Source of the DNA: Maritimibacter harenae
GTDB lineage: Bacteria > Pseudomonadota > Alphaproteobacteria > Rhodobacterales > Rhodobacteraceae
Direction of reading: 5' to 3'
Length of the DNA: 38,158 nucleotides
NCBI RefSeq assembly: GCF_009882975.1
Contig: NZ_WTUX01000068.1
Location: 1 to 38,158 of the forward strand
The notes under the pieces were generated by a model that did no database searches, was not told where the DNA came from, and saw nothing but the letters and a program-made list of their open reading frames with translations. A program made the position numbers and the translations under genes. Below, one piece after another: positions 10,573 to 31,294 of the stretch; the stretch's first letter is position 1, and each line of letters begins with the position of its first letter.

Positions 10573-10610
10573 TTGACAGCGCAGGCTTATTATTACTTAC
10601 TGGTCAGTAA
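10573..10610 (+). promoter_or_regulatory. Promoter with TetR-type palindromic operator for the rightward operon
   Basis: A consensus -35 box TTGACA (10573-10578) is followed after exactly 18 nt by the palindrome TTACTGGTCAGTAA (10597-10610; 6-bp arms, 2-bp centre). The palindrome covers the -10 region, as for a repressor site. It ends 15 bp before the preferred start of the crotonase-fold gene. The same arrangement occurs in mirror orientation at 31,257-31,294. The TetR protein at 22,286 is the natural candidate to bind both. Confidence 0.75.
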
Positions 10611-10624
10611 ATAAAGGTATGAAA

Positions 10625-11413
10625 ATGCAACATGCAAATGTCATTTTGGAGATGCGGGGATCGGCGGCCTGGTTGCGCCTGAACAGACCCACCGAATTGA
10701 ACGCTCTTTCGCGGGACATGGTCTTGGAGCTTGGGGAGGCGCTTGAGCGCATTCGTCGTGACGAAAAGCTGCGCGTTGTGGTGCTGACCGGCAGCGGCCG
10801 GGCGTTCTGTGCGGGCGCTGATCTCAAGGCGGTGCAAGCTGGTCTGTCACAGGAGCGGTCCGACGACGGCGACTTCCTTGATGCCGTAGCGGAGGTTTTT
10901 CAGATTCTCCGCGATTTTCCCAAACCCGTCATTGGTGGCCTGAACGGCGTGACCGTCGCCGGCGGTCTGGAACTGGCCATGTGCTGCGACGTACTGATCA
11001 CCGCAGAAAGCGCGAAGATCGGTGATGCGCATGCCAATTTTGGGGTCTTTCCGGGGGCCGGTGGCGCTGCTGTCCTGCCCTCTCGGATTGGCCTGCCGAA
11101 CGCTAAATATCTGCTGTTTTCCGGCCGAAGTCTGCCGGCGCGCGATTGGTTGCGCATGGGGCTTGTGCAGGAAGTTGTTGCCGATGATGCGCTTGAGGCT
11201 CGTCTGGACACGTTCGCAAGTGATCTGGCTGACAAAAGCCCGCTCGTCCTGTCGCGCATGAAAGCGGTCGCCAACGCGTCAGTAGATATGTCGCAAGCCG
11301 AAGCTCTGGTCTGGGAATTGTCGGTCCTGCGCGACCACCTGACATCAAACGACGCTGCCGAAGGGCTGGCGGCGTTTTCGGAGAAACGCAAACCGGTCTT
11401 TGCCGGAAACTGA
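10625..11413 (+). CDS. Crotonase-fold enoyl-CoA hydratase/isomerase family protein
   Basis: A 262-residue crotonase-superfamily protein using ATG 10625, which has AAAGG seven bases upstream; ATG 10619 is too close to that site. The oxyanion-hole segments SGRAFCAGADLKAV and GVFPGAGGAAVLP are intact. When aligned to the classical hydratase, the two catalytic glutamates fall on His (in DAHANFGVF) and Tyr (in NAKYLLFSG), so simple enoyl-CoA hydration by the standard mechanism is doubtful; isomerase, hydrolase or lyase activity is possible. It is first in the operon under the palindromic operator and is followed by the thiolase after 11 bp. Family assignment is firm, reaction uncertain. Confidence 0.85.
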   Translation: MQHANVILEMRGSAAWLRLNRPTELNALSRDMVLELGEALERIRRDEKLRVVVLTGSGRAFCAGADLKAVQAGLSQERSDDGDFLDAVAEVFQILRDFPKPVIGGLNGVTVAGGLELAMCCDVLITAESAKIGDAHANFGVFPGAGGAAVLPSRIGLPNAKYLLFSGRSLPARDWLRMGLVQEVVADDALEARLDTFASDLADKSPLVLSRMKAVANASVDMSQAEALVWELSVLRDHLTSNDAAEGLAAFSEKRKPVFAGN

Positions 11414-11424
11414 TGAGGACCAAG

Positions 11425-12663
11425 ATGGACAAGGTTTACATAACCGGCGTGGCGATGACGCGCATGGGACGCCTGGACGGGGCGACTGTGAAGTCGCTGT
11501 CCCGCGAGGCCGTCACCGGGGCCCTGGCTGATGCCGGGATTTCCGCCGGTGCGGTCGAAGCCGCCTATTTCTCGAACGCCACCCAGCGGCATCTGGAAGG
11601 CCAGTTGATGATCCCGGGCCAGATCGCCCTGCGCGATATGGGGATCGAGGGCATTCCGGTTGTGAACGTCGAAAACGCCTGTGCCAGCGGATCAACCGCC
11701 CTGAACCTGGCGGCGCAGTTTCTGAAGGCAGGCGAAGGAGACGTGGCGTTGGCCGTCGGGGCCGAGAAGATGTGGACTGGTGACAAGGCCAAGATGTTCA
11801 GCTTTTTCGACTCGGGCTGGGAACTGGCGACTGCCGAGGAGAATGAAAAACAACTGCTGGCGCTGGGACATGGGATCGATCTGCCGGAAGGCAGCGAGTC
11901 CGAAAAACCCTATTCCGTTTTCATGGCCGTCTACGCCGCCTTTGCCCGCGCGCATATGCGCCTCTTTGGGACGACACAGGCGCAATTCGCGGCCATCGCG
12001 GCCAAGAACCACATGCATTCGGTGGAAAACGACAAGGCGCAGTTCCGCGATCCCTACACTGTTGGCGACGTGCTGGGCGCGCCGCCGATCACCTATCCGC
12101 TGACCCTGCCGATGTGCGCCCCGATGAGCGATGGCGGTGCTGCGGCGGTGCTGATGACCGAAGCGGGCATGAAGCGCCACGGCATTTCCCGAGACCGCGC
12201 CATCGAGTTGCGTGCCAGCGTGATCCAGACCGGTTCGGACCGGGATGGCGACGACTTTGAAAACCATCTGACCGCTAAGGCGGCCCGGCGCGCCTATGAG
12301 AAGGCCGGGCTTGGGCCCGAGGACGTCTCGGTCGCCGAGGTGCATGACGCCACTGCTGTGGGCGAGCTGATCCAGATCGAAAACCTTGGTCTTTTTCCCT
12401 TTGGTGAGGGCGCGGCAGCCTCCGAACGTGGCGAGACCACGATTGGCGGGCGTGTGCCGGTCAACCCGTCGGGTGGGCTGGAGTGCAAGGGCCACCCGAT
12501 CGGCGCCACCGGTCTGGGGCAGGTCTATGAGCTTGTCAGCCAGCTGCGCGGCGAATGCGGCACGCGCCAGGTCGAAGGGGCAAAGGTGGCAATTGCAGAG
12601 AACGGTGGTGGGCTGATCGGGATCGAAGAGGCCGTGGCCTCGGTCCTGATTCTGGCACGATAG
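11425..12663 (+). CDS. SCP-x-like thiolase / lipid-transfer protein
   Basis: A 412-residue thiolase-superfamily protein of the sterol-carrier-protein-x type, which cleaves 3-ketoacyl-CoA. The nucleophile Cys sits in VENACASGSTALN and the C-terminal catalytic region reads NPSGGLECKGHPIGATGLGQ. The VAEVHDATAVGELIQIENLG segment is typical of the SCP-x/lipid-transfer subgroup and not of FadA-type thiolases. Start ATG 11425 follows GAGGA at good spacing; the longer frame from 11413 overlaps the previous stop. In animals SCP-x acts on branched-chain acyl-CoAs, which fits with the AMACR-like gene downstream. A near-identical copy of its last bases and the next start survives at about 9,941-10,016. 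Confidence 0.85.
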   Translation: MDKVYITGVAMTRMGRLDGATVKSLSREAVTGALADAGISAGAVEAAYFSNATQRHLEGQLMIPGQIALRDMGIEGIPVVNVENACASGSTALNLAAQFLKAGEGDVALAVGAEKMWTGDKAKMFSFFDSGWELATAEENEKQLLALGHGIDLPEGSESEKPYSVFMAVYAAFARAHMRLFGTTQAQFAAIAAKNHMHSVENDKAQFRDPYTVGDVLGAPPITYPLTLPMCAPMSDGGAAAVLMTEAGMKRHGISRDRAIELRASVIQTGSDRDGDDFENHLTAKAARRAYEKAGLGPEDVSVAEVHDATAVGELIQIENLGLFPFGEGAAASERGETTIGGRVPVNPSGGLECKGHPIGATGLGQVYELVSQLRGECGTRQVEGAKVAIAENGGGLIGIEEAVASVLILAR

Positions 12664-12672
12664 GAGAGCGAG

Positions 12673-13809
12673 ATGTTCAAGACCGAAGAACAGACAATGG
12701 CCTGCGACATGCTGCGTCGCTTCCTCGATGACCAGATCGAACCGGAATACCTGAAGGTCAAGGATGCGCCGTTTGAAAAAGAGGTGATCCAGGGGTTCCT
12801 CACGCAACTGTCCGAATTCGGCCTGACCTCGGCCCCCCATCCCGAAGAGGCGGGTGGCATGGGGCTCGATTGGTCCACGCACCTGATGCTATTCGAAGAG
12901 GTCGGCGTCACGGCGATGGACATTGCGTTGCCGATCCTAATCAACGTGGTGGGCGCCGACCTTTTGCTTCGCCTTGGAACCGATGAACAACGCGCGCGCT
13001 ATATCCCACAGCTTCTGGCGGGTGAGACATCCGTGGCCATCGGCATCTCTGAGCCGGGTGTCGGCTCGGACGTGGCGGCGGTCAAGACACGCGCCCGCAA
13101 GGATGGCGGCGATTGGGTGATTTCGGGCGAAAAGACCTGGATTTCGAACGGGCGTTTCGCCGATTTCCTGATCTGCACCTGCAACACCGGCGAGGGGTTG
13201 ACGCATATCCTGGTCGACCGCAAGGAACACGGGTTCGAAACCCGCGACATCCCCAAGATCGGCCTCAATGCACAGTCGACCTCGCAGGTCTTCCTCGATG
13301 AGGTGCGGGTGCCCGTTGAGAACACCATCGGCGCCGAAGGGCGCGGGTTGCAGCAGACGCTGGTCGTGTTCGAACGCGCGCGGGTGCATATGGCGATGTG
13401 GGGCATCGCGCTGGCGCGCCGGGCGCTTGAGGAATCGATCCGTTACGCGCAAGAGCGCAACCAGCATGGCAAGCAGATCGCCGGGCATCAGATGATTGCC
13501 GACAAGATCGCCACCATGGCAACCGAGATCGACGCCGCGCGCCTGCTGACCCATCGTGCCGCCGGCATGATCGACCGCGATGAACGCTGCGACACGGAAT
13601 GCGCCATGGCCAAGTGGTACGGCACCGAGATCGCGGTGAACGCCACGCGGCAGGCGGTGCAGATCCATGGCGGCAACGGCGTGACCCGCGAGTTCATCGT
13701 CGAACGCCTGGCCCGCGAAGCCATCATCGGGCCGATCCCGGACGGGACCACAGAGATTCAGAAACTGCTGATCGCCCGGTCCCTGACCGGTGTGGCGGCG
13801 TTCAAATAG
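12673..13809 (+). CDS. Acyl-CoA dehydrogenase
   Basis: A 378-residue FAD-dependent acyl-CoA dehydrogenase catalysing alpha,beta-dehydrogenation and passing electrons to ETF, encoded by the opposing operon. Signature regions are AIGISEPGVGSDVAAVKTRA, the WISNG loop and IHGGNGVTREFIVERLAREA. At the position of the usual catalytic Glu (IYEGT) this protein has IPDGTTEIQ, so Asp replaces Glu. Asp occurs in some ACAD10/11-like relatives, so activity may be retained with altered chain preference. Start ATG follows AGGAGAG. Its first 18 codons are duplicated upstream of calB. The downstream dehydrogenase gene starts 11 bp after the stop. Confidence 0.9.
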   Translation: MFKTEEQTMACDMLRRFLDDQIEPEYLKVKDAPFEKEVIQGFLTQLSEFGLTSAPHPEEAGGMGLDWSTHLMLFEEVGVTAMDIALPILINVVGADLLLRLGTDEQRARYIPQLLAGETSVAIGISEPGVGSDVAAVKTRARKDGGDWVISGEKTWISNGRFADFLICTCNTGEGLTHILVDRKEHGFETRDIPKIGLNAQSTSQVFLDEVRVPVENTIGAEGRGLQQTLVVFERARVHMAMWGIALARRALEESIRYAQERNQHGKQIAGHQMIADKIATMATEIDAARLLTHRAAGMIDRDERCDTECAMAKWYGTEIAVNATRQAVQIHGGNGVTREFIVERLAREAIIGPIPDGTTEIQKLLIARSLTGVAAFK

Positions 13810-13820
13810 GGGCCCAGGTC

Positions 13821-14594
13821 ATGAAGATAGAAGGCAAGACCATTATCGTGACCGGCGGGGCCTCGGGACTTGGTGCTGCGACGGCAGAATACCTGCACGG
13901 GCTGGGTGCACAGGTGGCCATGTTCGACCGCGACATGGAACAGGGCACCGCGCTGGCCGACCGTTTGGGCGCGGACCGGGCCATGTTCCGGCAGGTGGAT
14001 GTGACCAGCGACGAGCACGTGTCCGAGGCCATCTCGGCTGTGGTCGACCGCTTTGGCGCGCTGCATGTCGCCATCAACTGTGCCGGTGTGGTCAGCCCGA
14101 TGAAGGTGGTCGACCGCGAGGGCGCACCTGCGTCTCTCGATGCCTTTCGCCGCACGGTCGAGATCAACCTTGTGGGCACGTTCAACGTGATGAGCCAGGC
14201 CGCCGCGCGGATGCTGGAAAACCCGCCCGAAGACGGGGAAGAGCGTGGCGTGATCGTCAACATCTCGTCCGGGGCGGCCTATGAAGGCCAGATCGGGCAG
14301 ACTGCCTATGCCTCGTCCAAGGCCGGTGTGATAGGGCTCAACCTGCCTGCCGCGCGCGAGCTGGGGCCGAAAGGCATCCGTATCAACGCCATCGCGCCGG
14401 GACTGTTTGGCACACCGATGGTGATGAGCCTCGGAGATGAGGTCGTCGCCTCGCTCGAAGAAAGCGTCGAGGCCCCCAAGCGGGTGGGCCGGATGGAAGA
14501 ATTCGCCCATGCCTGCGCTTTTCTGATCGAAAACAGCTACATGAACGGCGCGACCCTGCGTCTGGATGCCGCCACGCGGCTGCGGGCGAGGTGA
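13821..14594 (+). CDS. HSD10-like SDR 3-hydroxyacyl-CoA dehydrogenase
   Basis: A 257-residue short-chain dehydrogenase. VTGGASGLGAATAEYL is the NAD-binding glycine motif and NISSGAAYEGQIGQTAYASS carries the catalytic Ser and the Tyr of the YxxxK triad (YASSK). The LENPPEDGEERGVIVN stretch, the QIGQTAYASSKAGV region and IAPGLFGTPM closely resemble type II 3-hydroxyacyl-CoA dehydrogenase (HSD17B10), which oxidises 2-methyl-3-hydroxyacyl-CoA and other 3-hydroxyacyl-CoAs. I place the start at ATG 13821, because the longer frame runs inside the preceding gene out of its reading phase. It supplies the third beta-oxidation step between the hydratase and thiolase steps. Confidence 0.88.
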   Translation: MKIEGKTIIVTGGASGLGAATAEYLHGLGAQVAMFDRDMEQGTALADRLGADRAMFRQVDVTSDEHVSEAISAVVDRFGALHVAINCAGVVSPMKVVDREGAPASLDAFRRTVEINLVGTFNVMSQAAARMLENPPEDGEERGVIVNISSGAAYEGQIGQTAYASSKAGVIGLNLPAARELGPKGIRINAIAPGLFGTPMVMSLGDEVVASLEESVEAPKRVGRMEEFAHACAFLIENSYMNGATLRLDAATRLRAR

Positions 14595-14598
14595 CGAG

Positions 14599-15714
14599 AT
14601 GCTGACACGCAACGGTCCCCTCAAAGGTGTTCGGGTCATCGAAATGGCCGGGATCGGGCCTGCGCCCTTTGCGGCCATGCATCTGGCCGACATGGGCGCC
14701 GAAGTGGTGCGGATCACGCGCCCCGGTCAGGCTTTCCCCTTGCCGATCGATGAGAAACACAACCTGTTCAATCGCTCGCGGCGCAGTCTGGTGCTCGATC
14801 TGCGGCAGGCAAATGATGCTGAAAAGCTCTGGGGGCTGATCGAGCGGGCCGAGATTCTGATCGAGGGCTTCCGCCCCGGCAAGATGGAGAAACTCGGATT
14901 CGCTCCAGAGGCGGTTCTGGCACGCAATCCGGCGCTGGTCTATGGCCGCATGACCGGATGGGGACAGACCGGGCCGCTGGCACAGGCTGCCGGGCATGAT
15001 CTGAACTATGCCGCGATCACGGGCGCGGTTCATGGGCTGGGCGAGGCCGACCGGCCCCCGCCCGCGCCAATGAACCTGATTGCCGATCAGGGTGGTGGCG
15101 CGATGATGCTGAATGTCGGCATCCTCGCGGCCCTGACCCATGCGCGCGCAACCGGCGAGGGTCAGGTGGTCGACGCGGCCATGTGCGATGGGGTCAACCT
15201 CTTGATGACCATGCAACACGGGCTGGCGGCCGGTGGGGCCTGGAGCGGCGAGCGCGCTGGCGATTTCATCAATGGCGGGGTGGCGTGGTATCGTTGTTAC
15301 GAAACCGCCGACGGAAAGTTCATATCCATCGGCTGTGTCGAGCCACAGTTCTTTACCGAATTCCTGCGCCTGACCGGGCTGAGCGATGATCCGCGTTTTG
15401 CCGACCAATATGCGCCCGAGGCGCAGCCGGCCATGCGCGAGGCCCTGACCGAACTGTTCCTGACCCGGACACAGGCCGAATGGTGCGAGGTGCTGGAAGG
15501 CAGCGATGCCTGCTTTGCGCCGGTGGTGCCACTGGCCGAAGCTGCCACACACCAGCACAACCGGGCACGCGAGAGCTTTGTCACCGTGGACGGCATCGAA
15601 ATGCCCGCCCCGGCCCCCCGATTCTCACAAACCCCGCCAGACATTCCGACAACCGGTGACGCCGGTTTCGTCGAAATGAACGAAATCCTAGAGCATTGGA
15701 GGGCCGCCATATGA
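14599..15714 (+). CDS. CaiB/BaiF CoA-transferase family protein, alpha-methylacyl-CoA racemase-like
   Basis: A 371-residue class III CoA-transferase-fold protein. The N-terminus (GPLKGVRVIEMAGIGPAPFA) and the MTGWGQTGPLAQAAGHDLNY block resemble alpha-methylacyl-CoA racemase (AMACR), where His and Asp in this region invert the 2-methyl centre. AMACR-like enzymes let (2R)-methyl-branched acyl-CoAs enter beta-oxidation by making the (2S) form. Start ATG 14599 follows GAGGTGACGAG just after the SDR stop. The stop overlaps the livH start as ATGA. A CoA-transferase role cannot be excluded, but the motif and company favour racemase. Confidence 0.8.
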   Translation: MLTRNGPLKGVRVIEMAGIGPAPFAAMHLADMGAEVVRITRPGQAFPLPIDEKHNLFNRSRRSLVLDLRQANDAEKLWGLIERAEILIEGFRPGKMEKLGFAPEAVLARNPALVYGRMTGWGQTGPLAQAAGHDLNYAAITGAVHGLGEADRPPPAPMNLIADQGGGAMMLNVGILAALTHARATGEGQVVDAAMCDGVNLLMTMQHGLAAGGAWSGERAGDFINGGVAWYRCYETADGKFISIGCVEPQFFTEFLRLTGLSDDPRFADQYAPEAQPAMREALTELFLTRTQAEWCEVLEGSDACFAPVVPLAEAATHQHNRARESFVTVDGIEMPAPAPRFSQTPPDIPTTGDAGFVEMNEILEHWRAAI

Positions 15715-16592
15715 CCGGTCTGAGTTTCGCCGACGCCATACAGCTTTTGCTGGTCGGCCTGTCACAGGGCTGTCTCTACAGCCTGATCGCCATCGGCCTG
15801 GTGCTGGTCTACAAGGCTACCGAGCAGGTGAACTTCGCCCAGGGCGAGTTCATGATGCTGGGGGCCTTTGTAGGCTATCAGTTCATCGTGCTTTGGGGGT
15901 TGCCTTATTGGCTGGGGGCCTTGCTGACGCTCGTGTTCATGGGCGGGTTCGGTTACGGGGTCGACGCGCTTGTTGTGCGGCGGCTCACCGGGCAGCCGGT
16001 GTTCACCGTTTTTATCCTGACGCTGGCGCTGGGAATTGCACTGCGCGCCGTGGCCGGGATTGTATGGGGCTTTGGCAACTATTCGCTGCCTGCCCCGGTT
16101 GAGGGCAATCTGACGCTTGGGTCGGTCATCATTGGCTGGTCCAGCGTTCTGGCGATCCTGGTAACCGCCATCGTGGCCAGCGGGCTTTACGCCTTCTTCC
16201 GCTATGCCCGCCAAGGCGTGGCGATGCAGGCCTTGTCCCTGAACCAATTGGCGGCCTTTTACATGGGCATCCCCGTCAAGCGCCTGACCTCGTCCATCTG
16301 GGCCATGTCCGCAATCTTCGGCGCCATCGCCGGCCTGCTCCTGGGCCCGGTCACGCTGGTCTCGACGCAGATGGGATTTGTCGGCTTCAAAGCCTTTGCC
16401 GGCGCCATTGTCGGCGGGTTCGGATCGATCCCCGGCGCCGTTCTGGGCTGTTTGCTGATCGGCGTGACCGAGCCGTTCTTCGACATCATGTTCCCGACGT
16501 TCAAGGGCATCGGCGCCTATCTGATCATGTTCGTCGTGCTGCTGATCCGGCCCGAAGGGCTGCTGGCACAAATCTACGCAAAGAAGGTATAG
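15711..16592 (+). CDS. livH: Branched-chain amino acid-type ABC transporter permease LivH
   Basis: A 293-residue inner-membrane permease with about eight hydrophobic segments. GLSQGCLYSLIAIGLVLVYK and VNFAQGEFMMLGAF are the hallmark LivH N-terminal motifs, and GFVGFKAFAGAIVGGFGSIP is the conserved cytoplasmic loop. The chosen ATG at 15711 follows GGAGG and overlaps the preceding stop. It forms the membrane pore with LivM. Liv-type importers embedded in CoA-thioester catabolic operons usually carry carboxylic acids other than amino acids; the ligase that follows supports this. Confidence 0.92.
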   Translation: MTGLSFADAIQLLLVGLSQGCLYSLIAIGLVLVYKATEQVNFAQGEFMMLGAFVGYQFIVLWGLPYWLGALLTLVFMGGFGYGVDALVVRRLTGQPVFTVFILTLALGIALRAVAGIVWGFGNYSLPAPVEGNLTLGSVIIGWSSVLAILVTAIVASGLYAFFRYARQGVAMQALSLNQLAAFYMGIPVKRLTSSIWAMSAIFGAIAGLLLGPVTLVSTQMGFVGFKAFAGAIVGGFGSIPGAVLGCLLIGVTEPFFDIMFPTFKGIGAYLIMFVVLLIRPEGLLAQIYAKKV

Positions 16593-16596
16593 GCTC

Positions 16597-17676
16597 ATGC
16601 GCGTTCTTTTCCGCAAATCCTACAAGCAGGACATCCGCCTGTTTCGCGACCGCACACAGGCTTTCTGGTATCTGCTGTTCTTGTGTATCGCGCTTGCCGC
16701 CCCGCTGTTCCTTGACGGCTACTTTCTGGACGAATTGTCGTTTGTCTACATCTATGCCATCGCCGGCCTGGGTCTGATGATCCTCACCGGATTCTCGGGA
16801 CAAGTGAGTTTCGGGCAGGCCGCCTTTGTTGCCATCGGCGCCTATGCTCATACCATCCTGCTCAGCCGCTACGGCGTGCCGTGGATCCTGTCGCTGCCCC
16901 TGGCGGCGCTGATCACTGGTTTGGTCGGGCTGGCCATCGGGCGCATCTGCGGGCGCATGCATGGCTTGTATCTCGCCATCGCTACGCTTTCGATTGCTAT
17001 CGTGACCGAACGGCTGATCGGCGGCGGCGGCGATTTTACCGGCGGACATCGTGGCCTGCCGGTTCCGGGCATCGACATCTTCGGCATCGCCATCGACCAG
17101 AGCTGGAAGACCTACCTGTTAAATCTCGCCCTGTTTGTCGGCGCCATTCTGATGACGCGCAACCTGTTGCGCACACGGTCTGGCCGCGCCCTGATCGCGA
17201 TCCGCGACAGCGAAGTTTCGGCCCGTTCGCTGGGCACGAATGTGGCCTTCTACAAAGCCTATGCCTTCTTCCTGTCGGCGGTGTTCGCCGGTCTGGCTGG
17301 TGGGCTTCTGGCGCATGCGTTCTACTACATTACACCGGAAACTTTCGGCATGGGTGAGAGCATTCGCCTGCTTCTTATGATCGTTGTCGGTGGGATCGGC
17401 ACCATCCACGGGGCCATCTTCGGCGCGTTCTTCATCGTGCTGCTGCCCACCGTCCTGAGTTGGGTCAAGGTGCTGCTTCCCGGGGCCATAGCCACATCCG
17501 GCGGGTTCGACAGCCTCGCCTTCGGGATGATCCTTCTTGGCTTCATCCTGTTCGAACCTGATGGGCTCTATGGCCGCTGGGTCAAAATCCATCACTATTT
17601 CAACGTCTTCCCGATGTACAAGCGCCGCAGCTTCCAACGTCAGAAGACCTTCCTCAAGACGGAGCGTCTGAAATGA
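16597..17676 (+). CDS. livM: Branched-chain amino acid-type ABC transporter permease LivM
   Basis: A 359-residue second permease of the Liv-type importer. It has a basic N-terminus (MRVLFRKSYKQDIRLFRDR), several membrane spans, GFSGQVSFGQAAFVAIGAYA (the LivM signature) and LGTNVAFYKAYAFFLSAVFA, the coupling-loop region. It starts 4 bp after livH and its stop overlaps the livG ATG by 4 bp. The C-terminus is longer and more basic than usual (HHYFNVFPMYKRRSFQRQKT). Intact. Confidence 0.92.
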   Translation: MRVLFRKSYKQDIRLFRDRTQAFWYLLFLCIALAAPLFLDGYFLDELSFVYIYAIAGLGLMILTGFSGQVSFGQAAFVAIGAYAHTILLSRYGVPWILSLPLAALITGLVGLAIGRICGRMHGLYLAIATLSIAIVTERLIGGGGDFTGGHRGLPVPGIDIFGIAIDQSWKTYLLNLALFVGAILMTRNLLRTRSGRALIAIRDSEVSARSLGTNVAFYKAYAFFLSAVFAGLAGGLLAHAFYYITPETFGMGESIRLLLMIVVGGIGTIHGAIFGAFFIVLLPTVLSWVKVLLPGAIATSGGFDSLAFGMILLGFILFEPDGLYGRWVKIHHYFNVFPMYKRRSFQRQKTFLKTERLK

Positions 17677-18440
17677 GCTGGCTTGAAGTCGAAAACGTGT
17701 CGCTGGCATTCGGTGGGCTGAAAGCCGTCGATAACCTGAGCTTCTCGGTGGAACCGGGCAAGGTATTCACCATCATCGGTCCCAATGGTGCCGGCAAGAG
17801 CACGGTGTTCAACCTGATCTGCCGCATCTATGACCCGCTGGAAGGCGATATCCGCTTTGGTGGCGAAAGCCTGCTGGGGGCCAGGCCCCACGAAGTGATC
17901 AACCACGGCATCGCCCGCACCTTCCAGAACATCGAATTGTTCGAGCATGCCTCACTTCTGGACAACCTGTTGATCGGCCGGTTCCGGCATGGGCGGTTCT
18001 CGCCGCTGAGCGAGCTGTTCTTCCTGCCCGGCCAATTACGCCAGGAACTGGAGCACCGCCGCAAGGCGGAAGAGGTTATCGAGTTTCTCGATCTCGAAGG
18101 CTACCGTCACGCCCGCGTCGCCGACCTGCCTTACGGCGTGCGCAAGAAAACCGAGATGGCGCGCGCGCTGGTCGCCAGCCCCGAGATCCTGTTGCTGGAT
18201 GAGCCCTCCAGCGGGCTGACCACCGAGGAAACCGACGACACCGCCTTTGTGATCGAAGACATCCGCGAGGATCTGGGCATCACCGTGGTGATGATCGAGC
18301 ACGACATGAAGCTGGTGAACAAGGTCTCGGACAAGGTTCTGGCAATCAACGAAGGCCGCTTCCTGGCCACCGGCAGCGCCTCGGAGGTGCAGGACGACCC
18401 GGATGTGCAGGCAGCCTATCTAGGGGGGGAAGCGGCATGA
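17673..18440 (+). CDS. livG: Liv-type ABC transporter ATP-binding protein LivG
   Basis: A 255-residue ABC ATPase. Walker A is GPNGAGKST, the Q-loop region reads GIARTFQNIELF, and Walker B with the catalytic Glu is ILLLDEPSSGLT. The signature region PYGVRKKTEMARALV departs from the canonical LSGGQ, as is common in LivG proteins. The switch histidine is in MIEHDMKLV. It couples to LivH/LivM on the cytoplasmic face. Overlaps of four bases with livM and livF indicate translational coupling. Confidence 0.92.
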   Translation: MSWLEVENVSLAFGGLKAVDNLSFSVEPGKVFTIIGPNGAGKSTVFNLICRIYDPLEGDIRFGGESLLGARPHEVINHGIARTFQNIELFEHASLLDNLLIGRFRHGRFSPLSELFFLPGQLRQELEHRRKAEEVIEFLDLEGYRHARVADLPYGVRKKTEMARALVASPEILLLDEPSSGLTTEETDDTAFVIEDIREDLGITVVMIEHDMKLVNKVSDKVLAINEGRFLATGSASEVQDDPDVQAAYLGGEAA

Positions 18441-21042: not shown

Positions 21043-21062
21043 AACTTGAAAGGGAGGAAATC

Positions 21063-22223: not shown

Positions 22224-22237
22224 TCTCGCCAACATGT

Positions 22238-22260: not shown

Positions 22261-22285
22261 GCGCACAATTTATAGTGAGGGAAAT

Positions 22286-23211: not shown

Positions 23212-24993
23212 TCAATTCGCCCGAACGTAGCTTCCCGGTGCCGGCTCGATGGATTTGTACTTTCCGCGGTTGACGGGCTTTCGAGGCTTGACGGTCTTGC
23301 CGTCTTTGGCCTCGAGCCAGTCCGCCCAGTAGGGCCACCACGACCCCGGCATTTCCGTGGCCTTGGTCAGAAAATTCGCTGGTTCTGGCGGATAGGTGTC
23401 GCTTTTTCTGAAACCGTATTTGGCACGTTCGGTCGGGGGGTTGATGACTCCGGCAATATGGCCCGAGCCGCCAAGGACAAATTCAACCTCGCCGCCGAGT
23501 ATCTGCGTAGCTGGATAAATCGAGGTCCAGGGGGCGATGTGATCCTCGGACGTGGCAAGTACGAAAACCGGCGTTTCGATCTTGCTCAGATCGATCTTGA
23601 CACCGTTCATTTCCAATCCACCGGGCTGGCGCAGCCGGTTCTCTAGATAGACCTCTTTGAGATACCAAAGCAGCATGGCCGCAGGCAGTCGTGTGGAATC
23701 CGAATTCCAATACAAAAGGTCGAAAGCCCGGGGTTTCCGACCGCGCAGGTAATTGGCCTCGAAGAACGACCAGATCAAATCGTTCTCGCGAAGCATCGAG
23801 AACATGTCCTGCAAGTGATAGGCTTCAAGATAGCCTTTCTCTTCCATATGCGCACGCAGGACTTCCAGCCGGTTTTCATCGACGAAGACGCCGATTTCGC
23901 CCACGTCCTTGAAATCGACCATGGTGGCCAGTGTCGTGGCGGAATTGACCCGGTCATCACCAATGGCTGCGAGGTAAGCCAGCGTTGCCGTCACCAGGAT
24001 GCCACCAATGCAGAAACCGAGGATATTGGCCTTTTCTTCGCGGGTGATGTCGCGAATGGCATCAAGCGCGGCCAGCGGTCCGAGTTTCATGTAATCAGCA
24101 AAATCCTTGTCCGCGTGATCGCTGGTCGGGTTGACCCAGGAAATCACGAACACGGAATGCCCCCGATCCAGCATGTAGCGCACCAGGCTGTTCTTCGGCT
24201 GCATGTCCAGAATGTAGAACTTGTTGATCCAGGCCGGGACAAACAGGATTGGCACACTGTGCTGGTCCGGTGTGCGCGGATGGTACTGGATCAGCTGCAT
24301 CAGGTCGTTTTGAAACACAACCTCGCCTTCTGTCGTGCCAAGATCCTTTCCGACCGTGAACGCCGACGGATCGTTCGTCGCGATGTCCAGGCGCCCCTCA
24401 CCGCGCTCGAGATCGTCGAGCATTTTGGACAATCCTTCCCGAAAACTCGCACTGTTGGTTTCAGTGAACATCTTACGCGCCGGAGCGTTGGTCAGCAGGT
24501 AGTTACTGGGCGACAGTGCGCTCATCATCTGCCGCGTGTAGAATCTGACACGCATATAATCTCTGGAATTTTTTGGAAGCTCTTCCAAAAGGTCATTGGT
24601 CGCGCCTTCAATCGCCAGGAACACATCGCGATAGGCTCGCGATATCGGGTCCTTTTCCCAACTCGGATCGCTGAAACGGCGATCTCGCACACCGCTTTCT
24701 TCATCGGGGCCTTGCAGTATCGCCTTCCACGAAGACTGGATCGCCATGCTGGCCTTTATCTGTGCATCAACCAGCTTGCCCGGCTCCTGCAGCATGTCGG
24801 CCCAGAAGGTTCCATAGGCTTTGGCAAGTGTCTTGGCGTCGATCAGGGAATACTCTGACCCGCTGGCCTTTTTGAGGGCCCGCACGTGCAGCTGTGACAG
24901 CACTTTTGTCGTGCGCAGGGTCAGATCCTGCATTTCCGTTGCGGCCTTTGCTGTGTCGGCTGTGTCGTTCGTTTTAGTCCACTGTGTCATCAT
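23212..24993 (-). CDS. phaC: Class I polyhydroxyalkanoate synthase PhaC
   Basis: A 593-residue class I PHA synthase, polymerising (R)-3-hydroxyacyl-CoA on the granule surface. The alpha/beta-hydrolase core shows the lipase-like box GFCIGG with nucleophile C328, then D484 in TSEDHIAPW and H512 in GGSGHIAGVINPP. Also typical are VPAWINKFYILDMQPKNSLV and VISWVNPTSDHADKDF. The start has two consecutive ATG codons after a weak GGACTCGG. It lies 183 bp behind the MaoC hydratase gene, which could supply its monomers. No phaA, phaB, phasin or phaR gene is seen in the window. Confidence 0.93.
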   Translation of the reverse strand: MMTQWTKTNDTADTAKAATEMQDLTLRTTKVLSQLHVRALKKASGSEYSLIDAKTLAKAYGTFWADMLQEPGKLVDAQIKASMAIQSSWKAILQGPDEESGVRDRRFSDPSWEKDPISRAYRDVFLAIEGATNDLLEELPKNSRDYMRVRFYTRQMMSALSPSNYLLTNAPARKMFTETNSASFREGLSKMLDDLERGEGRLDIATNDPSAFTVGKDLGTTEGEVVFQNDLMQLIQYHPRTPDQHSVPILFVPAWINKFYILDMQPKNSLVRYMLDRGHSVFVISWVNPTSDHADKDFADYMKLGPLAALDAIRDITREEKANILGFCIGGILVTATLAYLAAIGDDRVNSATTLATMVDFKDVGEIGVFVDENRLEVLRAHMEEKGYLEAYHLQDMFSMLRENDLIWSFFEANYLRGRKPRAFDLLYWNSDSTRLPAAMLLWYLKEVYLENRLRQPGGLEMNGVKIDLSKIETPVFVLATSEDHIAPWTSIYPATQILGGEVEFVLGGSGHIAGVINPPTERAKYGFRKSDTYPPEPANFLTKATEMPGSWWPYWADWLEAKDGKTVKPRKPVNRGKYKSIEPAPGSYVRAN

Positions 24994-25175: not shown

Positions 25176-25625
25176 CTACGCGGCTTTTGTGCCCCGTTTG
25201 GCGCTGGAGGTCAGCTTGACAGTGGCCTCGCCGTCCACCACGACCTGCCCGCGGACGCGGCAGGTTGTTCTCAAGTTCGCGCGGCAGCGCTCGGTCTCGA
25301 TTGTTTCGACAATCACTTCAGCGTGAACTGTGTCTCCTGGACGCACAGGTGCCACAAAATTCATCTCCTGCGAGATATAGATTGTTCCGGGCCCGGGTAG
25401 TTTGTTGGCAATCGCCGCGGAGATAGTGCTGGCGGTAAGAAACCCATGCGCGATCCGGCCATTGAACGGTGTGGTTTTGGCAAACTCATCATTGATGTGA
25501 ATGGCGTTGTTGTCGCCGGATGCCCCGGCAAAGAGAACAATGTCGGCGTCGGTGATGGTTTTCGAGAACGTGGCGGTCATGCCCGGTTCGAGATCTTCGA
25601 TGTCATATCCGTTCAGCTCGTTCAT
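25176..25625 (-). CDS. phaJ: MaoC-like (R)-specific enoyl-CoA hydratase
   Basis: A 149-residue MaoC hot-dog-fold hydratase. The catalytic Asp/His motif is visible as FAGASGDNNAIHINDEFA, followed by GRIAHGFLTAS. The start is ATG 25625 with CAGGAGAA upstream; the longer frame reads into the intergenic region. Family members hydrate trans-2-enoyl-CoA to (R)-3-hydroxyacyl-CoA, linking beta-oxidation to PHA synthesis (PhaJ). Sitting between ETF-QO and phaC, that role is likely, though the symbol is by analogy. It may also replace the hydratase step if the crotonase-fold protein has another function. Confidence 0.82.
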   Translation of the reverse strand: MNELNGYDIEDLEPGMTATFSKTITDADIVLFAGASGDNNAIHINDEFAKTTPFNGRIAHGFLTASTISAAIANKLPGPGTIYISQEMNFVAPVRPGDTVHAEVIVETIETERCRANLRTTCRVRGQVVVDGEATVKLTSSAKRGTKAA

Positions 25626-25650
25626 AGTGCGGTTCTCCTGATTTAGGCAT

Positions 25651-27300
25651 TTACATGTTCGGATAATTTGGTCCGTCGCCGCCCTGCGGCGTGACCCAGT
25701 TGATGTTCTGGCTTGGGTCCTTGATGTCACAGGTCTTGCAGTGCACGCAGTTCTGGAAATTGATCACGAAGCGCGGGTCGCTGCCGTCTTCCTCGACCAC
25801 CTCGTAGACGCCGGCCGGGCAATAGCGCTGTGCCGGTTCGCCGTATTTTGGCAGGTTGACCGAGATCGGCAATTTGTCATCACCCAGCTGCAGGTGGCTT
25901 GGCTGACTTTCCTCGTGATTGGTCATCGCAAACGACACGTTGGTCAGCCGGTCAAAGCTCAGCTTGCCATCGGGTTTTGGATAATCGATCACCTTGTGCT
26001 TGCTGGCCTCTTCGGTGGCCGCCGCATCGGTCTTGCCATGTTTCATCGTGCCAAAGAGCGAAAAGCCCAGCGTGTTGGTCCACATGTCCAGACCGCCCAG
26101 CGCCAGCGAGGGCAGCATCCCCCATTTCGACCACATCGGCTTGACGTTGCGCACCTTTTTCAGATCCTTGCCGATGGCGCCGCCCCGCACGTCGTCCTCA
26201 TACGCCGTCAGCTCATCACCCGACCGCTCGACCTTAATCGCGTCAAACGCCGCCTCGGCCGCGGCCTTGCCGCTGAGCATCGCGTTGTGATTACCCTTGA
26301 TCCGCGGCACGTTGACCATGCCCACCGAACAGCCCAACAGCGCTACACCGGGTGCCACCATTTTCGGCATCGACTGGTATCCGCCTTCGGAAATCGCCCG
26401 TGCGCCATAGGCCACGCGTTTGCCGCCTTCCAGCAGTTCGGCCACCATCGGGTGATGCTTGAAGCGCTGGAATTCCATATAGGGGAAGAGATGCGGGTTC
26501 TTGTAGTTCAGGTGCACCACGAACCCGACATAGACCTGGTTGTTCTCGAGGTGATAGATGAACGACCCGCCCCCGGCATTGCCTCCCAGCGGCCAGCCCA
26601 TGGTGTGGGTCACCTCACCCTCGTTGTGCTTGTCCGGGTCGATCTCCCAGATCTCTTTCATGCCGATGCCGAATTTCTGCGGCTCCTTGCCCTTCGACAG
26701 GTCGTATTTGGCAATCACTTCCTTGGCCAGTGACCCGCGCACGCCCTCGGACAGAAACACGTACTTGCCGTGCAGCTCCATGCCGGGCTCATAGGCCGGC
26801 CCCGGTGTGCCATCGGCTTCCTTGCCGAACTCACCGGCCACAACACCCTTCACGCCGCCGTTTTCGTCATAAACCAGCTCGGAACAGGCCATGCCGGGGA
26901 AAACCTCGACGCCCAGCTCCTCGGCCTGCTCGGCCATCCAGCGACAGACATTGGCCATGCTGACGATGTAGTTGCCGTGGTTGTTCATCAGCGGCGGCAT
27001 CGGAAACCCCGGCACCCGGATCTGACCGGCCTCGCCCAGCATGTAGAACTTGTCGGAGGTCACCGGGACGTTTAGCGGCGCGCCCTTTTCCTTCCAGTCG
27101 GGGATCAGCGCCTCGAGCCCCGAGGGATCGAGTACTGCGCCGGACAGGATATGCGCCCCCACTTCCGAACCCTTTTCCAGCACCACCACGTCAAGCGAAC
27201 TGTCGAGCTGCTTGAGACGGACCGCGGCGCTCAGACCCGCAGGCCCCGCGCCGGCGATCACCACATCATATTCTATCGTTTCTCGTGCAGATCCAGACAT
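25651..27300 (-). CDS. Electron transfer flavoprotein-ubiquinone oxidoreductase
   Basis: A 549-residue ETF-QO, the membrane-bound enzyme that moves electrons from reduced ETF to ubiquinone. FAD binding: DVVIAGAGPAGLSAAVRL at the N-terminus. The C-terminal 4Fe-4S cluster ligands appear in RYCPAGVYEV and NCVHCKTCDIKDPSQNINW, followed by PQGGDGPNYPNM at the end. The start is ATG 27300, 11 bp after the acyl-CoA dehydrogenase stop; the longer frame overlaps that gene. Length matches the family. With etfAB in the same operon it completes electron transfer for the two acyl-CoA dehydrogenases of the island. Confidence 0.94.
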   Translation of the reverse strand: MSGSARETIEYDVVIAGAGPAGLSAAVRLKQLDSSLDVVVLEKGSEVGAHILSGAVLDPSGLEALIPDWKEKGAPLNVPVTSDKFYMLGEAGQIRVPGFPMPPLMNNHGNYIVSMANVCRWMAEQAEELGVEVFPGMACSELVYDENGGVKGVVAGEFGKEADGTPGPAYEPGMELHGKYVFLSEGVRGSLAKEVIAKYDLSKGKEPQKFGIGMKEIWEIDPDKHNEGEVTHTMGWPLGGNAGGGSFIYHLENNQVYVGFVVHLNYKNPHLFPYMEFQRFKHHPMVAELLEGGKRVAYGARAISEGGYQSMPKMVAPGVALLGCSVGMVNVPRIKGNHNAMLSGKAAAEAAFDAIKVERSGDELTAYEDDVRGGAIGKDLKKVRNVKPMWSKWGMLPSLALGGLDMWTNTLGFSLFGTMKHGKTDAAATEEASKHKVIDYPKPDGKLSFDRLTNVSFAMTNHEESQPSHLQLGDDKLPISVNLPKYGEPAQRYCPAGVYEVVEEDGSDPRFVINFQNCVHCKTCDIKDPSQNINWVTPQGGDGPNYPNM

Positions 27301-27310
27301 CTCAATGACC

Positions 27311-29095
27311 TCACGCAACGCTGTGCAGATCAGAGGGTGCCAGCGCCAGAACGCTCGACGCACCATCCGTCGCCGCGCTCAGCCGTGCCAGCGCCTCGGG
27401 GAAGACTTGCTGCGCATAGAATTCCGCCAGCCGGATCTTGGCGCCGGCATGGTCGGATTGGCCACCCGCGGCAGGTTCCCCAGCGGCAGCAAGCGCCGCA
27501 TCGCCCAAGGCCCAGGCGCCCAGCGAAAGGCCGAAGAGCTCTAGCACGTTCATTGCCGACGCGGCCTGCGTATGTGCGGTTTCCTTACCCGCATCAAGCA
27601 GCCATCTTGTAGCGGTTTCCACCGTATCGGCAGCGTGCGAAACGCTGCGCGACAAGAGCGTCCAATCACCGTGCGGGCTGCTCTCGCAGGCAAGTTCCGC
27701 CGCGCTCAATCGCATGTCGTCGATGATTTCCTGAACCGCCGCACCGCGGTCGCGCAGGATCTTGCGCCCGGTCAGGTCGAGTGCCTGAATGCCCGTGGTA
27801 CCCTCGTAGATCGTGGTGATCCGGGCGTCGCGCAGGTGCTGTGCTACACCGGTTTCCTCGATATAGCCCATGCCACCATGAACCTGAATGCCAAGCGAGG
27901 CGGTCTGGATCGACATCTCGGTCGAACAGCCTTTGACAACCGGGATCAGTAGATCAACCCGGCGCTGTGCACGGTCCCGGGCCTCGGGGTCGACGGCGCG
28001 ATGCGCAAAATCCAGCGCCGCCGCGGCGCGGTAGGCGAGAATGCGGGCGGCTTCGGTGCGGCTCTTCATGATACCCAGCATGCGGCGAACATCTGGATGG
28101 TGAATGATTGCGGCCGACCCCTCGACCCCGTCAACCTTGCCCTGCCGGCGGTCGGCTGCATACGCCGCCGCGTCCTGGCAGGCATGTTCGGCAACGCCGA
28201 TGCCCTGGATTCCCACATTGAGCCGGGCGTTGTTCATCATCGCGAACATATACTCCAGTCCACGGTTGACCTCGCCCACAAGGTAACCGACGGCGCCACC
28301 GCTATCTCCAAATGACAACGTGCATGTCGGGCTGGCATGAATACCCAGCTTGTGCTCAATCGAAACGCAGTGCACGTCATTGGGAGCGCCATCTGGCATC
28401 ACCTTCGGTACAACGAAGAGCGAGATGCCTTTGACGCCCGCCGGAGCATCAGGCAGTCGGGCCAGCACGAGGTGGATGATGTTGTCAGTAAGGTCATGCT
28501 CGCCGTAAGTTATGAAGATCTTCTGGCCGCTGATCCGGTAGCAATCGCCCTCGGGCACCGCCTTTGACCGTATCGCGGCCAGATCAGACCCTGCCTGCGG
28601 TTCTGTCAAGTTCATGGTTCCGGTCCATTCGCCGCTCACCAGTTTGGGCAGGTAGGTCTCTTTCAAGGTGTCCGAAGCATAGCATTCAAGCGCCTCGATC
28701 GCGCCCTGGGTCAGCATCGGGCAGAGCTGGAATGCCATGTTGGCGCCGTGGAACATCTCCTGGATGCAGGCATTGACCACGAAGGGCAGACCCATGCCAC
28801 CGTATTCGGGGCTTGCCGACGGGCTGTTCCAGCCCATCTCGACCAGCATGTCGTAGACGGTTTTCCAGCCTTCGGGCATGGTCACCCGGCGATCTTCAAA
28901 ACCCAGACCGGCGAGGTCGCCGGACCGGCTGAGCGGCGACAGTTCTAGGCCGGCATATTTGGCGGCTTCCTCGAGGATCGCGTCCACCATATCCGGCGTT
29001 GCCTCTTCAAGGCCAGGCAACTGGCTGATCGCGTCGAGATCACAAAGCTTGCGCAGAACGAAACGCATGTCCTGAAGGGGGGCGGTATAGGTCAT
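27311..29095 (-). CDS. DmdC-like long acyl-CoA dehydrogenase
   Basis: A 594-residue acyl-CoA dehydrogenase of the extended type, with an additional N-terminal part ([19 protein letters not shown]) and a C-terminal extension; the ~600-residue length matches 3-methylmercaptopropionyl-CoA dehydrogenase (DmdC) and related enzymes. FAD/substrate motifs are [40 protein letters not shown] and the catalytic-Glu motif [12 protein letters not shown], which here is intact. Substrates of relatives range from methylthiopropionyl-CoA to ordinary acyl-CoAs, so I do not assign dmdC. It sits between etfA and the ETF-QO gene in the leftward operon. Confidence 0.87.
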
Positions 29096-29109
29096 TTTCT
29101 GACTCCAGA

Positions 29110-30036
29110 TCAGAGCTTTTCGATCAATTCCGGCACGGCGGTGAACAGGTCGGCGACCAGTCCGAAATCCGCGACCTGGAAGATCGGGGCCTCTTCGTCC
29201 TTGTTGATGGCAACGATGACCTTGGAGTCCTTCATGCCGGCGAGGTGCTGGATCGCACCCGAGATGCCGACCGCAACATAGAGGTCCGGGGCCACGACCT
29301 TGCCGGTCTGGCCGACCTGCCAGTCGTTGGGGGCATAGCCCGAATCGACCGCCGCGCGCGACGCGCCGACAGCGGCGCCTAGCTTGTCCGCGAGGGCTTC
29401 GATCAGTTTGAAGTCCTCTTCGGAACCGACACCGCGGCCACCCGAGACCACGACGCCTGCCGAGGTCAGTTCAGGTCGATCGCTTTCGGCGACCTTGTCC
29501 TCGACCCATTCGCTGAGGCCGGGATTGTCACCCGCCGAGATGGTTTCGATCGGGGCCGAACCACCGTCACCGGCCGCATCAAAGGTCGAGGTGCGGAAGG
29601 TGACGACCTTTTTGGCATCGTTCGAGCGGACCGTCTGCACGGCATTGCCGGCATAGATCGGGCGTTCGAACGTGTTGCCGTCAACCACGCCCGAGGCATC
29701 TGAGATCACCATCACGTCCAGCAGTGCGGCAACACGCGGCATCACGTTCTTGGCGTCGGTGGTGGCGGGCGCAACGATATGCTCGTAATCACCGGCCAGC
29801 GACACGATCAGCGCAGCGGTGGATTCCGCCAGGCGGTGGCCGAGGCTTGCGTCTTCGGCGACCAGCACTCTGGACACGCCGTCGATCTTGGCGGCGGCTT
29901 CGCCCGCGGCGGCGGCAGAGCCCCCGGCACAGAGCGCGGTCACGTCACCCAGGGCCTTGGCGGCGGTCACGGCCTTGGCGGTGGCGTCCAGCGACAATTC
30001 GCCATTGTTCACTTCGGCAAGGAGAAGAACAGCCAT
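29110..30036 (-). CDS. etfA: Electron transfer flavoprotein alpha subunit
   Basis: A 308-residue ETF alpha subunit ([18 protein letters not shown]). The FAD-binding C-terminal domain shows [35 protein letters not shown] and [17 protein letters not shown], then [20 protein letters not shown]. The true start is ATG 30036, overlapping the etfB stop by one base (TAATG); the longer open frame runs through etfB. It pairs with EtfB to accept electrons from acyl-CoA dehydrogenases. A dedicated ETF pair beside catabolic dehydrogenases suggests specialised use in this pathway. Confidence 0.95.
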
Positions 30037-30794
30037 TACACAGCCCCCGCTTCTTTGAGTTTCTCGACCAGTTCGTCGACCGAGCCGACGATGATCCCAG
30101 CGGCGCGGGCCTCGGGTTCGGCCGTGCTGACGATTTCCAGGCGCGGGGCGACTTCGACGCCGTAATCGGCGGCGGTTTTTTCGTCCAACGGCTTTTTCTT
30201 GGCCTTCATGATATTCGGCAGCGAGGCATAGCGCGGTTCGTTCAGGCGCAGGTCGACGGTGACGATGGCCGGCATTTTGACCTTGATAGTTTGCAATCCG
30301 CCGTCGACTTCGCGGGTCACGTTGGCGCTGTCGCCGTCGATCTCCAGTTTGGAGGCGAACGTCGCCTGTGCCCAACCCGTGAGCGCCGCAAGCATCTGCC
30401 CGGTGGCGTTCATGTCATTGTCGATGGCCTGTTTACCGCACAGAACGATACCTGGCTGTTCTTCGTCGATCACCGCTTTCAGCAGCTTCGCCACGGCGAG
30501 GGGTTCGATGTCGGTATGCACATCGTCGGCGGCGACAATCAGGATCGCCCGGTCGGCCCCCATGGCCAAAGCTGTCCGCAGCGTTTCCTGCGCCTGCTTT
30601 ACGCCGACCGAGACCGCAATGATCTCTTCGGCTTTGCCGGCCTCTTTCAGTCGGATCGCCTCCTCGACGGCAATTTCGTCAAACGGATTCATCGACATTT
30701 TCACGTTGGCGAGATCAACGCCCGATCCGCCCGCTTTGACGCGAACCTTCACGTTATAGTCGATCACGCGTTTGACAGGCACCAGCACCTTCAT
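30036..30794 (-). CDS. etfB: Electron transfer flavoprotein beta subunit
   Basis: A 252-residue ETF beta subunit beginning [20 protein letters not shown], with [20 protein letters not shown] and the AMP-binding/dehydrogenase-docking region [20 protein letters not shown] as in the family (here EVDGGLQ). The start is ATG 30794 with AAGGAGCC upstream; the track's longer frame extends into leader sequence. First intact gene of the leftward operon, 460 bp downstream of the palindromic promoter at 31,257-31,294, the gap being filled by gene remnants. Confidence 0.95.
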
Positions 30795-30949
30795 TATGAG
30801 GCTCCTTTTTTTGATGTTCGGCCATCGGGAAGTGTCCGATGGGAAACGCGACTTCACTTGGTAGTTTCGTTCAGCTTCCAGAGATTGTTCACCACGTCAC
30901 TGCCATCTTCGAAAACCCGGTTTAATGTGTTTTCAACTTGCCAAATGCA

Positions 30950-31243
30950 GCTGATTTTGTGGCTCGCCTTTTTGGCGCCCATGCCAACAATCGACGCAAC
31001 CGCCACCGGGTACTTTGCTTGTAAGGTACATGTGGACGAGGTGTTTGTAGCTCTTGCTGTCCTTGATCCCCTTCAGGCTGAGGCTTTCCAATTGGGTGGA
31101 CGACGTGCGGCAGCTGGCATCGCATGTCTTCGATCACAATCCTGAGCTGGCAGCCCTGGTTACAGCCTGCAGCAATGATTTCGTCAACGCGCACCAGATC
31201 GGCGACCCCTTTGGTTCCAAGACGACAGTTTTTTTGTCAGCAT
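30950..31243 (-). pseudogene. LivK-type binding protein remnant
   Basis: Just after the mirrored promoter a ribosome site (AAGGA, 7 nt) precedes ATG 31243, encoding MLTKKLSS and then losing frame. In another frame follows VRVDEIIAAGCNQGCQLRIV and IEDMRCQLPHVV, matching MRVDEINAAGGIHGRQLEIV and IEDTQYQVPRAI of the intact livK. The signal peptide region and nearly all the rest are missing, with further frame changes after about 31,090. The promoter therefore originally served a binding protein gene and now reads through to etfB. Confidence 0.75.
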
Positions 31244-31256
31244 TTAGGTTTCCTTT

Positions 31257-31294
31257 TTACTGACTAGTAAGTAATAAATAGCTGAAGCAGTCAA
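31257..31294 (-). promoter_or_regulatory. Promoter with TetR-type palindromic operator for the leftward operon
   Basis: On the minus strand a -35 box TTGACT (31289-31294) is followed after exactly 18 nt by TTACTAGTCAGTAA (31257-31270), the same palindrome as at 10,597-10,610 except for one central base. The flank TTATTACTTACT is also shared. It faces left towards the livK remnant and etfB. Identical architecture at both outer edges of the island argues for one repressor acting on both operons. Confidence 0.75.

Follow-up and report, generated by a model that had tools for sequence, protein, structure and literature searches.

A shared operator suggests joint TetR control of convergent beta-oxidation and polyhydroxyalkanoate operons in Maritimibacter harenae

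Introduction

Why should two operons that converge from opposite ends of a catabolic island start from nearly the same promoter? The question is raised by a 38,158-nucleotide stretch of Maritimibacter harenae DNA (contig NZ_WTUX01000068.1; hereafter the window), in which an earlier note, made from the sequence alone, had described two mirror-image promoters with the same palindrome and had named a TetR-family protein encoded between them (22286-22897) as the obvious protein to bind it. The rightward operon is devoted to uptake and beta-oxidation of an acyl-coenzyme A (acyl-CoA) substrate; the leftward one encodes electron transfer flavoprotein (ETF), ETF-ubiquinone oxidoreductase (ETF-QO) and polyhydroxyalkanoate (PHA) synthesis functions. 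From comparison with related loci we propose, with a probability of roughly three in four, that both sites are operators of the cluster-encoded TetR, which would control the two convergent operons as one regulon.

Results

Both sites proved correct to the base, each with an 18-nt gap, the palindrome and a shared flank. On the plus strand, TTGACA (10573-10578) is followed after 18 nt by TTACTGGTCAGTAA (10597-10610), which ends 8 nt before the first ATG of the rightward operon (10619). On the minus strand, TTGACT (31294-31289) is followed after the same gap by TTACTAGTCAGTAA (31270-31257); the ATG of a 19-codon frame lies 13 nt beyond it, and an AAGGA-like sequence and this ATG come directly after the operator. 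The 14-bp palindrome first described is real and forms the inner part of a longer element: the full operator is an 18-bp inverted repeat of the form 8-2-8, TTACTTAC-N2-GTCAGTAA, with seven of eight arm pairs matched in both window copies, and the 18-mer common to the two sites, shared flank included, reads TTACTTACT(G/A)GTCAGTAA. Read in the direction of transcription, the likeness extends over a 47-nt inverted repeat (10565-10611 and 31256-31302) in which 37 bases (79%) are alike, 17 of 18 inside the 18-mer and 20 of 29 outside it.

Such a pair is rarely expected by chance. When the window was shuffled 200 times with its dinucleotides preserved, two of the shuffled versions contained an inverted pair of 22-mers with at most one mismatch; the real window holds only two such pairs, the operators and an unrelated one inside a 77-nt repeat (9941-10017 and 12652-12728). 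When the left promoter was searched against the genome at the DNA level, the right site was likewise recovered (E 9e-4), and the exact 14-mer TTACTNGTCAGTAA has two matches in the 4.25-Mb genome, both at these positions. Counting exact matches only, the operator is thus confined to these two promoters within the genome. On comparative grounds, the two operons are probably one regulon. Weaker matches were dropped as meaningless, because at up to two mismatches the 14-mer gives 7 genome matches and a reversed-pattern control gives 19.

The operator is kept among orthologous operons while its surroundings are not. In Seohaeicola, Pseudosulfitobacter and Paracoccus albus, whose TetR proteins are 70%, 69% and 69% identical to that of the window, the sequence just before the first gene shares 16, 17 and 16, respectively, of the 18 positions of the left operator. 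The 45 bases upstream agree with the left promoter at only 15, 16 and 16 positions, a chance-level likeness that was equalled by 2,203, 3,983 and 3,621 of 20,000 shuffles. In Pseudosulfitobacter the two arms of the 8-2-8 repeat pair without a mismatch, TTACTTAC-TG-GTAAGTAA.

Among 394 sampled family genomes, the 18-mer occurs in two, that of the window (both sites) and that of Seohaeicola (G172; one site, at the orthologous operon). All three sites precede the rightward-type operon or its partner, and it is their position, not their number, that carries the argument. Seohaeicola is also alone in having a TetR match at E <= 1e-40 among 394 genomes drawn around G134, a genome described below; the window genome gave no row in this sample and is seemingly not part of it. 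Shimia (TetR 99% identical) and Pelagimonas (92%), found through TetR, carry exact 14-mers before the equivalent operon. By contrast, S. alexandrii and G005, with TetR proteins 45% identical to that of the window, have TTACCGACTGGTAA as their promoter palindrome, a second operator type. Across the five kinds of locus compared, operator type follows the operon's own tetR. Because of operator position, co-occurrence and this covariation, TetR 22286 is probably the protein that reads both operators, as the earlier note had supposed.

Within the window genus, the 18-mer is found in one of eight genomes; G005 has the S. alexandrii-type unit, and the best TetR matches of the other six range from E 6e-11 to 3e-6. 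A search of five related genomes at up to one mismatch returned seven matches, two of which (contig C2 of G005 and contig C2 of G064) lie apart from the operon and were taken as chance. Two contigs of Pseudooceanicola G063 (C24 and C21) both break at the equivalent of window 10625, which would be expected if this genome also had more than one copy of the promoter and assembly had failed there.

As to the protein itself, matches to TetR_N (E 1e-12) and TetR_C_24 (E 7e-18) place it in the TetR/AcrR family, and its predicted model is nearly all-helical (predicted local distance difference test score, pLDDT, 87), with DarR as the closest solved fold, then PfmR, AibR, KstR2 and, further down, FadR. 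The titles of their PDB entries name isovaleryl-CoA with AibR and stearoyl-CoA with FadR; to judge by the model, an acyl-CoA is a likely guess for the ligand class. Against the Vibrio-type PsrA family model NF053516 the protein scores 19.1 bits (cutoff 300), which places it outside that family. No FadP- or LiuQ-named match appears among its TetR family-model matches, a result read from match names. The palindrome overlies the promoter from which the tetR operon would be transcribed and is kept among orthologues, as expected of a cluster-situated TetR repressor, and no copy of the 14-mer with up to three mismatches lies directly before tetR itself. Because tetR comes last in the rightward operon and has no operator copy of its own, TetR should limit its own synthesis; it is probably autoregulated.

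What do the two operons encode? The rightward one comprises 12 genes from 10619, the last being tetR (Table 1). Its CoA_transf_3 ('CaiB') protein matches solved alpha-methylacyl-CoA racemases (2g04, E 3e-96; 1x74, E 6e-91) far more strongly than the best other family (8e-41), and the motifs GHDxNY and NLxAD are retained in the alignment. We take these motifs to hold the racemase catalytic His and Asp. Assignment as a CoA transferase was rejected on the strength of these matches, and by sequence the product is an alpha-methylacyl-CoA racemase. Together with the SCP2-type thiolase, and given the known roles of both families, the racemase hints at a methyl-branched acyl-CoA substrate. Phytol or another isoprenoid was considered, and the literature searched offered nothing useful.

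This operon is a mobile unit of roseobacters and their kin, present on several plasmids. The copy that a mobilizable plasmid carries in Phaeobacter sp. G2 is 96.5% identical, and the plasmid-borne copies in Pseudosulfitobacter, Sulfitobacter and Paracoccus albus are about 75% identical. Identity reaches 97-99% at the DNA level in Pelagimonas, Shimia and Pseudooceanicola, and 58-82% at the protein level in Seohaeicola. In the plasmid regions that we read for operon order (Phaeobacter G2, Pseudosulfitobacter, P. albus and S. alexandrii), genes, order and terminal tetR are as in the window: enoyl-CoA hydratase, thiolase, acyl-CoA dehydrogenase, short-chain dehydrogenase, racemase, livHMGF, FadD, substrate-binding protein and TetR. 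The S. alexandrii and G005 version adds an aldehyde dehydrogenase and a GMC oxidoreductase between binding protein and TetR. The window form of the operator precedes the first gene in Phaeobacter G2, Pseudosulfitobacter and P. albus, whereas S. alexandrii has the other palindrome.

The leftward operon runs from 30794 in the order etfB, etfA, acyl-CoA dehydrogenase, etfQO, phaJ and phaC. The ETF, ETF-QO, PHA synthesis and beta-oxidation content described earlier stands, to which we add the phaJ gene that had been left unnamed. PhaC scores 617.6 bits against the class I model TIGR01838, just below the cutoff of 622.65. No phasin, thiolase or CMD remnant was found in the leader or in the phaJ-phaC gap, and a scan of the minus strand from the right operator to etfB called no promoter-like site and no terminator.

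A matching large acyl-CoA dehydrogenase (E <= 1e-200) occurs in 8 of 394 family genomes, window genome included. In G134 a related module keeps ETFB, ETFA, acyl-CoA dehydrogenase, ETFQO and PhaJ together with PhaC, although phaJ and phaC are separated by genes for CMD, thiolase and phasin; upstream of it stand liv genes and a ligase gene, and a two-component system is close by. In G114 the module is kept up to PhaJ and a CMD-like frame, and the contig ends soon after. The palindrome TTAC-N6-GTAA is absent from nine stretches from seven other dehydrogenase-bearing genomes, several of which end at contig edges. With no palindrome in these stretches and no second genome carrying the right site, the bracketed layout is not supported as a conserved unit. 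Because relatives elsewhere lack the operator, the leftward module appears to have been brought under control of this TetR in the present genome.

How the right half fared in closer relatives can be read from phaC. No plasmid record covers 80% of the right half (24233-32400). Seven genomes, not including Phaeobacter, were searched at the DNA level with 24233-31450; in Shimia, Pelagimonas, Pseudooceanicola and Seohaeicola this returned only ETF and ETF-QO matches of 74-83% together with shorter, weaker pieces. Only the 3' part of phaC, as far as the equivalent of window 24233, is kept in Phaeobacter, Shimia and Pseudooceanicola; the interrupting sequence is identical in the three and starts TGTCACTGTACC, and TniABQ-type genes come next in Phaeobacter. 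The Pelagimonas match ends at window 23572, within phaC and 96 bases from the contig end. Since phaC is intact and joined to its upstream genes in the window, the comparison favours loss of the right half in these relatives over its never having been there.

The two window promoters may share a common origin. Upstream of the operator they agree at 23 of 45 positions, a likeness that 7 of 20,000 shuffles equalled, and the left promoter resembles the right one more than it does any of its three divergent orthologues (Seohaeicola, Pseudosulfitobacter and P. albus). This fits an old duplication of the operator-promoter as the source of the right copy. A younger copy is found in relatives: Phaeobacter, Shimia and Pelagimonas have a second left promoter, 249 bp at 98.8%, before aldehyde-dehydrogenase/GMC genes, and in the latter two a fragment of the thiolase gene is attached to it. 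In the window this second copy is missing, and a transposase remnant is found there. The regulon may therefore have grown by promoter duplication.

Discussion

We propose the following model. A TetR dimer would bind the 18-bp repeat at both promoters; if TTGACA and TTGACT are the -35 elements, the operator overlies the -10 region and the transcription start, and bound repressor would block RNA polymerase sterically. A pathway acyl-CoA would release the repressor and turn both halves on. With its liv-type ABC transporter the rightward operon would then take up an acyl chain, probably methyl-branched, which its enzymes would activate with CoA, racemise and degrade by beta-oxidation; the ETF, long acyl-CoA dehydrogenase and ETF-QO of the leftward operon would carry off the electrons, and PhaJ and PhaC would divert enoyl-CoA into storage polymer. 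Leftward transcription would have to read through the leader into etfB.

Several observations weigh against this model. The right operator is separated from etfB by 462 nt without a recognisable gene, and the right site has been seen in one genome only. A sigma-70 consensus scan called no promoter at either site, presumably because the -10 hexamer is poor at both. The TTGACA/TTGACT-N18 spacing, which the earlier note had stressed as identical, is common to the two window promoters and their near-identical copies but is lost in more distant orthologues, since in Pseudosulfitobacter and P. albus the box reads TTGATT and is spaced differently, and Seohaeicola has no clear box. We therefore rejected it as a defining feature. 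Raw counts are weak, as a reversed 18-mer gave two matches in the same 394 genomes against three for the real one. The single exact 14-mer among 60 relatives searched (G014) lies before an unrelated gene, a secreted binding protein by eye, in a genome with no TetR match better than E 2e-5; the reversed 14-mer gave five matches in the same 61 genomes. Pseudooceanicola G063 (TetR 89% identical) has no operator at up to one mismatch, an uninformative result, since its contigs break just past the site. Finally, the best fold match, DarR, binds cyclic di-AMP, so that an acyl-CoA ligand is not settled, and the Seohaeicola operon has no racemase match, which weakens the case for a methyl-branched substrate.

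Could the left site alone be in use, the right one being a stray or decaying promoter copy and etfB-phaC transcribed from elsewhere? The long leader would suit this explanation, as would the failure to find the right site in a second genome and the G134 module, which lies beside its two-component system with no such palindrome in the stretches read. Yet the right operator retains 17 of 18 positions despite the divergence of its flanks from those of the left one, a contrast that suggests selection on the operator; an AAGGA-like sequence and an ATG follow it, and the minus strand offers no other promoter-like call before etfB. We consider exclusive use of the left site unlikely. Recent ancestry could also explain the likeness, if the two promoters came with two copies of a mobile element or promoter cassette and are not jointly regulated. 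The 249-bp copy in Pelagimonas, Shimia and Phaeobacter would fit such copying, as would the transposon genes or remnants of the region; the differences, however, fall at 22 of 45 upstream positions and at 1 of 18 operator positions, a pattern not expected from recent copying, and a copied operator-promoter would itself mean joint regulation, which makes this account quite improbable.

Control of both sites by a regulator other than TetR 22286 seems very improbable. The genome has eight matches to this TetR, itself included, and a truncated TetR lies at 6443-6850, but four further genome matches listed are each only 23-26% identical, and operator type tracks the operon's tetR in all five kinds of locus. 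The truncated TetR was rejected as the binding protein, since it matches the DNA-binding domain only.

TetR-family regulators of acyl-CoA catabolism are often encoded beside the genes that they control and bind palindromic sites within promoters. KstR2, AibR, PfmR and Bacillus FadR share the TetR fold, are among the nearest solved structures and, in the case of AibR and FadR, have an acyl-CoA effector; they are 18-26% identical to the window TetR, whose regulon would differ in adding the ETF/PHA module to beta-oxidation. Excerpts of one article describe PsrA and FadP of Gamma- and Betaproteobacteria as TetR-family regulators of many fatty-acid degradation genes, with regulons of 11-18 genes on average per genome (PMC5343134). 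Such regulons differ from the single mobile cluster proposed for the window, and the window TetR is no PsrA by the Vibrio-type model. Extracts of a second article report that PsrA also affects PHA yield, and that PhaD of Pseudomonas, likewise TetR-like and encoded with PHA genes, is an activator (PMC9049629); the window TetR, by contrast, would be a repressor.

Co-repression of storage-polymer synthesis with beta-oxidation had been called unusual. The ETF, acyl-CoA dehydrogenase, ETF-QO, PhaJ and PhaC neighbourhood exists elsewhere, and TetR-type regulators that touch fatty-acid or PHA metabolism are known; what stands is that, among the loci examined, the module lies under this operator solely in this window. 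Cluster-encoded TetR repressors of acyl-CoA catabolism are likewise known, and the new twist is the PHA/ETF module brought in, possibly by promoter duplication. The literature searched, mostly titles and the beginnings of abstracts, held no prior account of this regulon, and a full-text search with the operator 12-mer gave no match.

An uncharacterised TetR thereby gains a definite 18-bp candidate operator, a pair of operons as probable targets and a likely class of ligand, and promoter copies of different ages offer a small natural series of a mobile operon recruiting genes, PHA storage included. More tentatively, and at somewhat less than even odds, we suggest that a mobile catabolic operon widens its own regulon by copying its operator-promoter cassette before neighbouring genes: aldehyde dehydrogenase/GMC in three relatives and, longer ago, ETF/ETF-QO/PhaJ/PhaC here. 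A plasmid-type repressor would thus have come to govern both the capture of energy and the storage of carbon from a single substrate, probably methyl-branched.

Features of the window

Table 1. Positions of the promoters, operators and genes considered, with the evidence for each
Feature	Position	Strand	Remarks
Second TetR, truncated, DNA-binding part only	6443..6850	-	nearest to S. alexandrii/G005-type TetR; 192 bases match the G005 locus at 82% DNA identity
GMC oxidoreductase (6828-8459) and aldehyde dehydrogenase (8474-9919)	6828..9919	-	
Mutator-type transposase remnant between aldehyde dehydrogenase and left promoter	10009..10251	+	PF00872, E 6e-19
TTGACA, candidate -35 of rightward operon	10573..10578	+	-10 would fall within operator
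Left operator, 18 bp, TTACTTACTGGTCAGTAA	10593..10610	+	imperfect 8-2-8 inverted repeat; orthologous sites in Seohaeicola, Pseudosulfitobacter, Paracoccus albus
Enoyl-CoA hydratase, first gene	10619..11413	+	Pfam ECH_1
SCP2-type thiolase (type-1)	11413..12663	+	Thiolase_C_1; 6hsj, E 4e-67
Acyl-CoA dehydrogenase	12673..13809	+	
Short-chain dehydrogenase, probably for the 3-hydroxyacyl-CoA step	13821..14594	+	start after Phaeobacter G2 annotation
Predicted alpha-methylacyl-CoA racemase (CoA_transf_3 fold)	14566..15714	+	longest frame, true start probably later
livH, livM, livG, livF, branched-chain-amino-acid-type ABC transporter	15696..19207	+	
Acyl-CoA ligase, FadD11-like	19198..21042	+	with AMP-binding_C_3
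Periplasmic substrate-binding protein of liv transporter	21063..22223	+	
Putative TetR repressor, last gene	22286..22897	+	TetR_N and TetR_C_24
phaC, class I-like PHA synthase	23212..24993	-	PhaC_N, E 3e-58; lipase box GFCIG
phaJ-like MaoC (R)-enoyl-CoA hydratase	25176..25625	-	MaoC_dehydratas, E 5e-26; 80% identical to G134 PhaJ
ETF-ubiquinone oxidoreductase	25651..27366	-	longest frame, true start probably later
Large acyl-CoA dehydrogenase, 594 amino acids	27311..29095	-	Acyl-CoA_dh_C
etfA	29110..30039	-	start from the 4-base overlap with etfB seen in L107
etfB, first recognisable gene	30036..30794	-	Pfam ETF
Leader between right operator and etfB	30860..31243	-	short frames only
Right operator, 18 bp, TTACTTACTAGTCAGTAA	31257..31274	-	sequence reading, repeat search, DNA search
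TTGACT, candidate -35 of leftward operon	31289..31294	-	

The left edge of the island (1698-5228) carries genes for TniQ, TniB and a Mu-type transposase. Just upstream of the aldehyde dehydrogenase gene, the 77-nt repeat mentioned above is an inverted copy (94%) of the thiolase/acyl-CoA dehydrogenase junction, perhaps the scar of a second, deleted copy of the operon. On the right, 31549-31700 has counterparts in 70 plasmid records, where the DNA is annotated with hypothetical-protein genes; 62 of these plasmids are typed as conjugative, and among the matches listed this is the only part of 30800-31700 with plasmid DNA matches; because of them, the window may be plasmid-borne. Further along the right flank lie a frame with a signal peptidase II domain (34494-35387, minus strand) and an ArsR-type regulator (35893-36249, plus strand).

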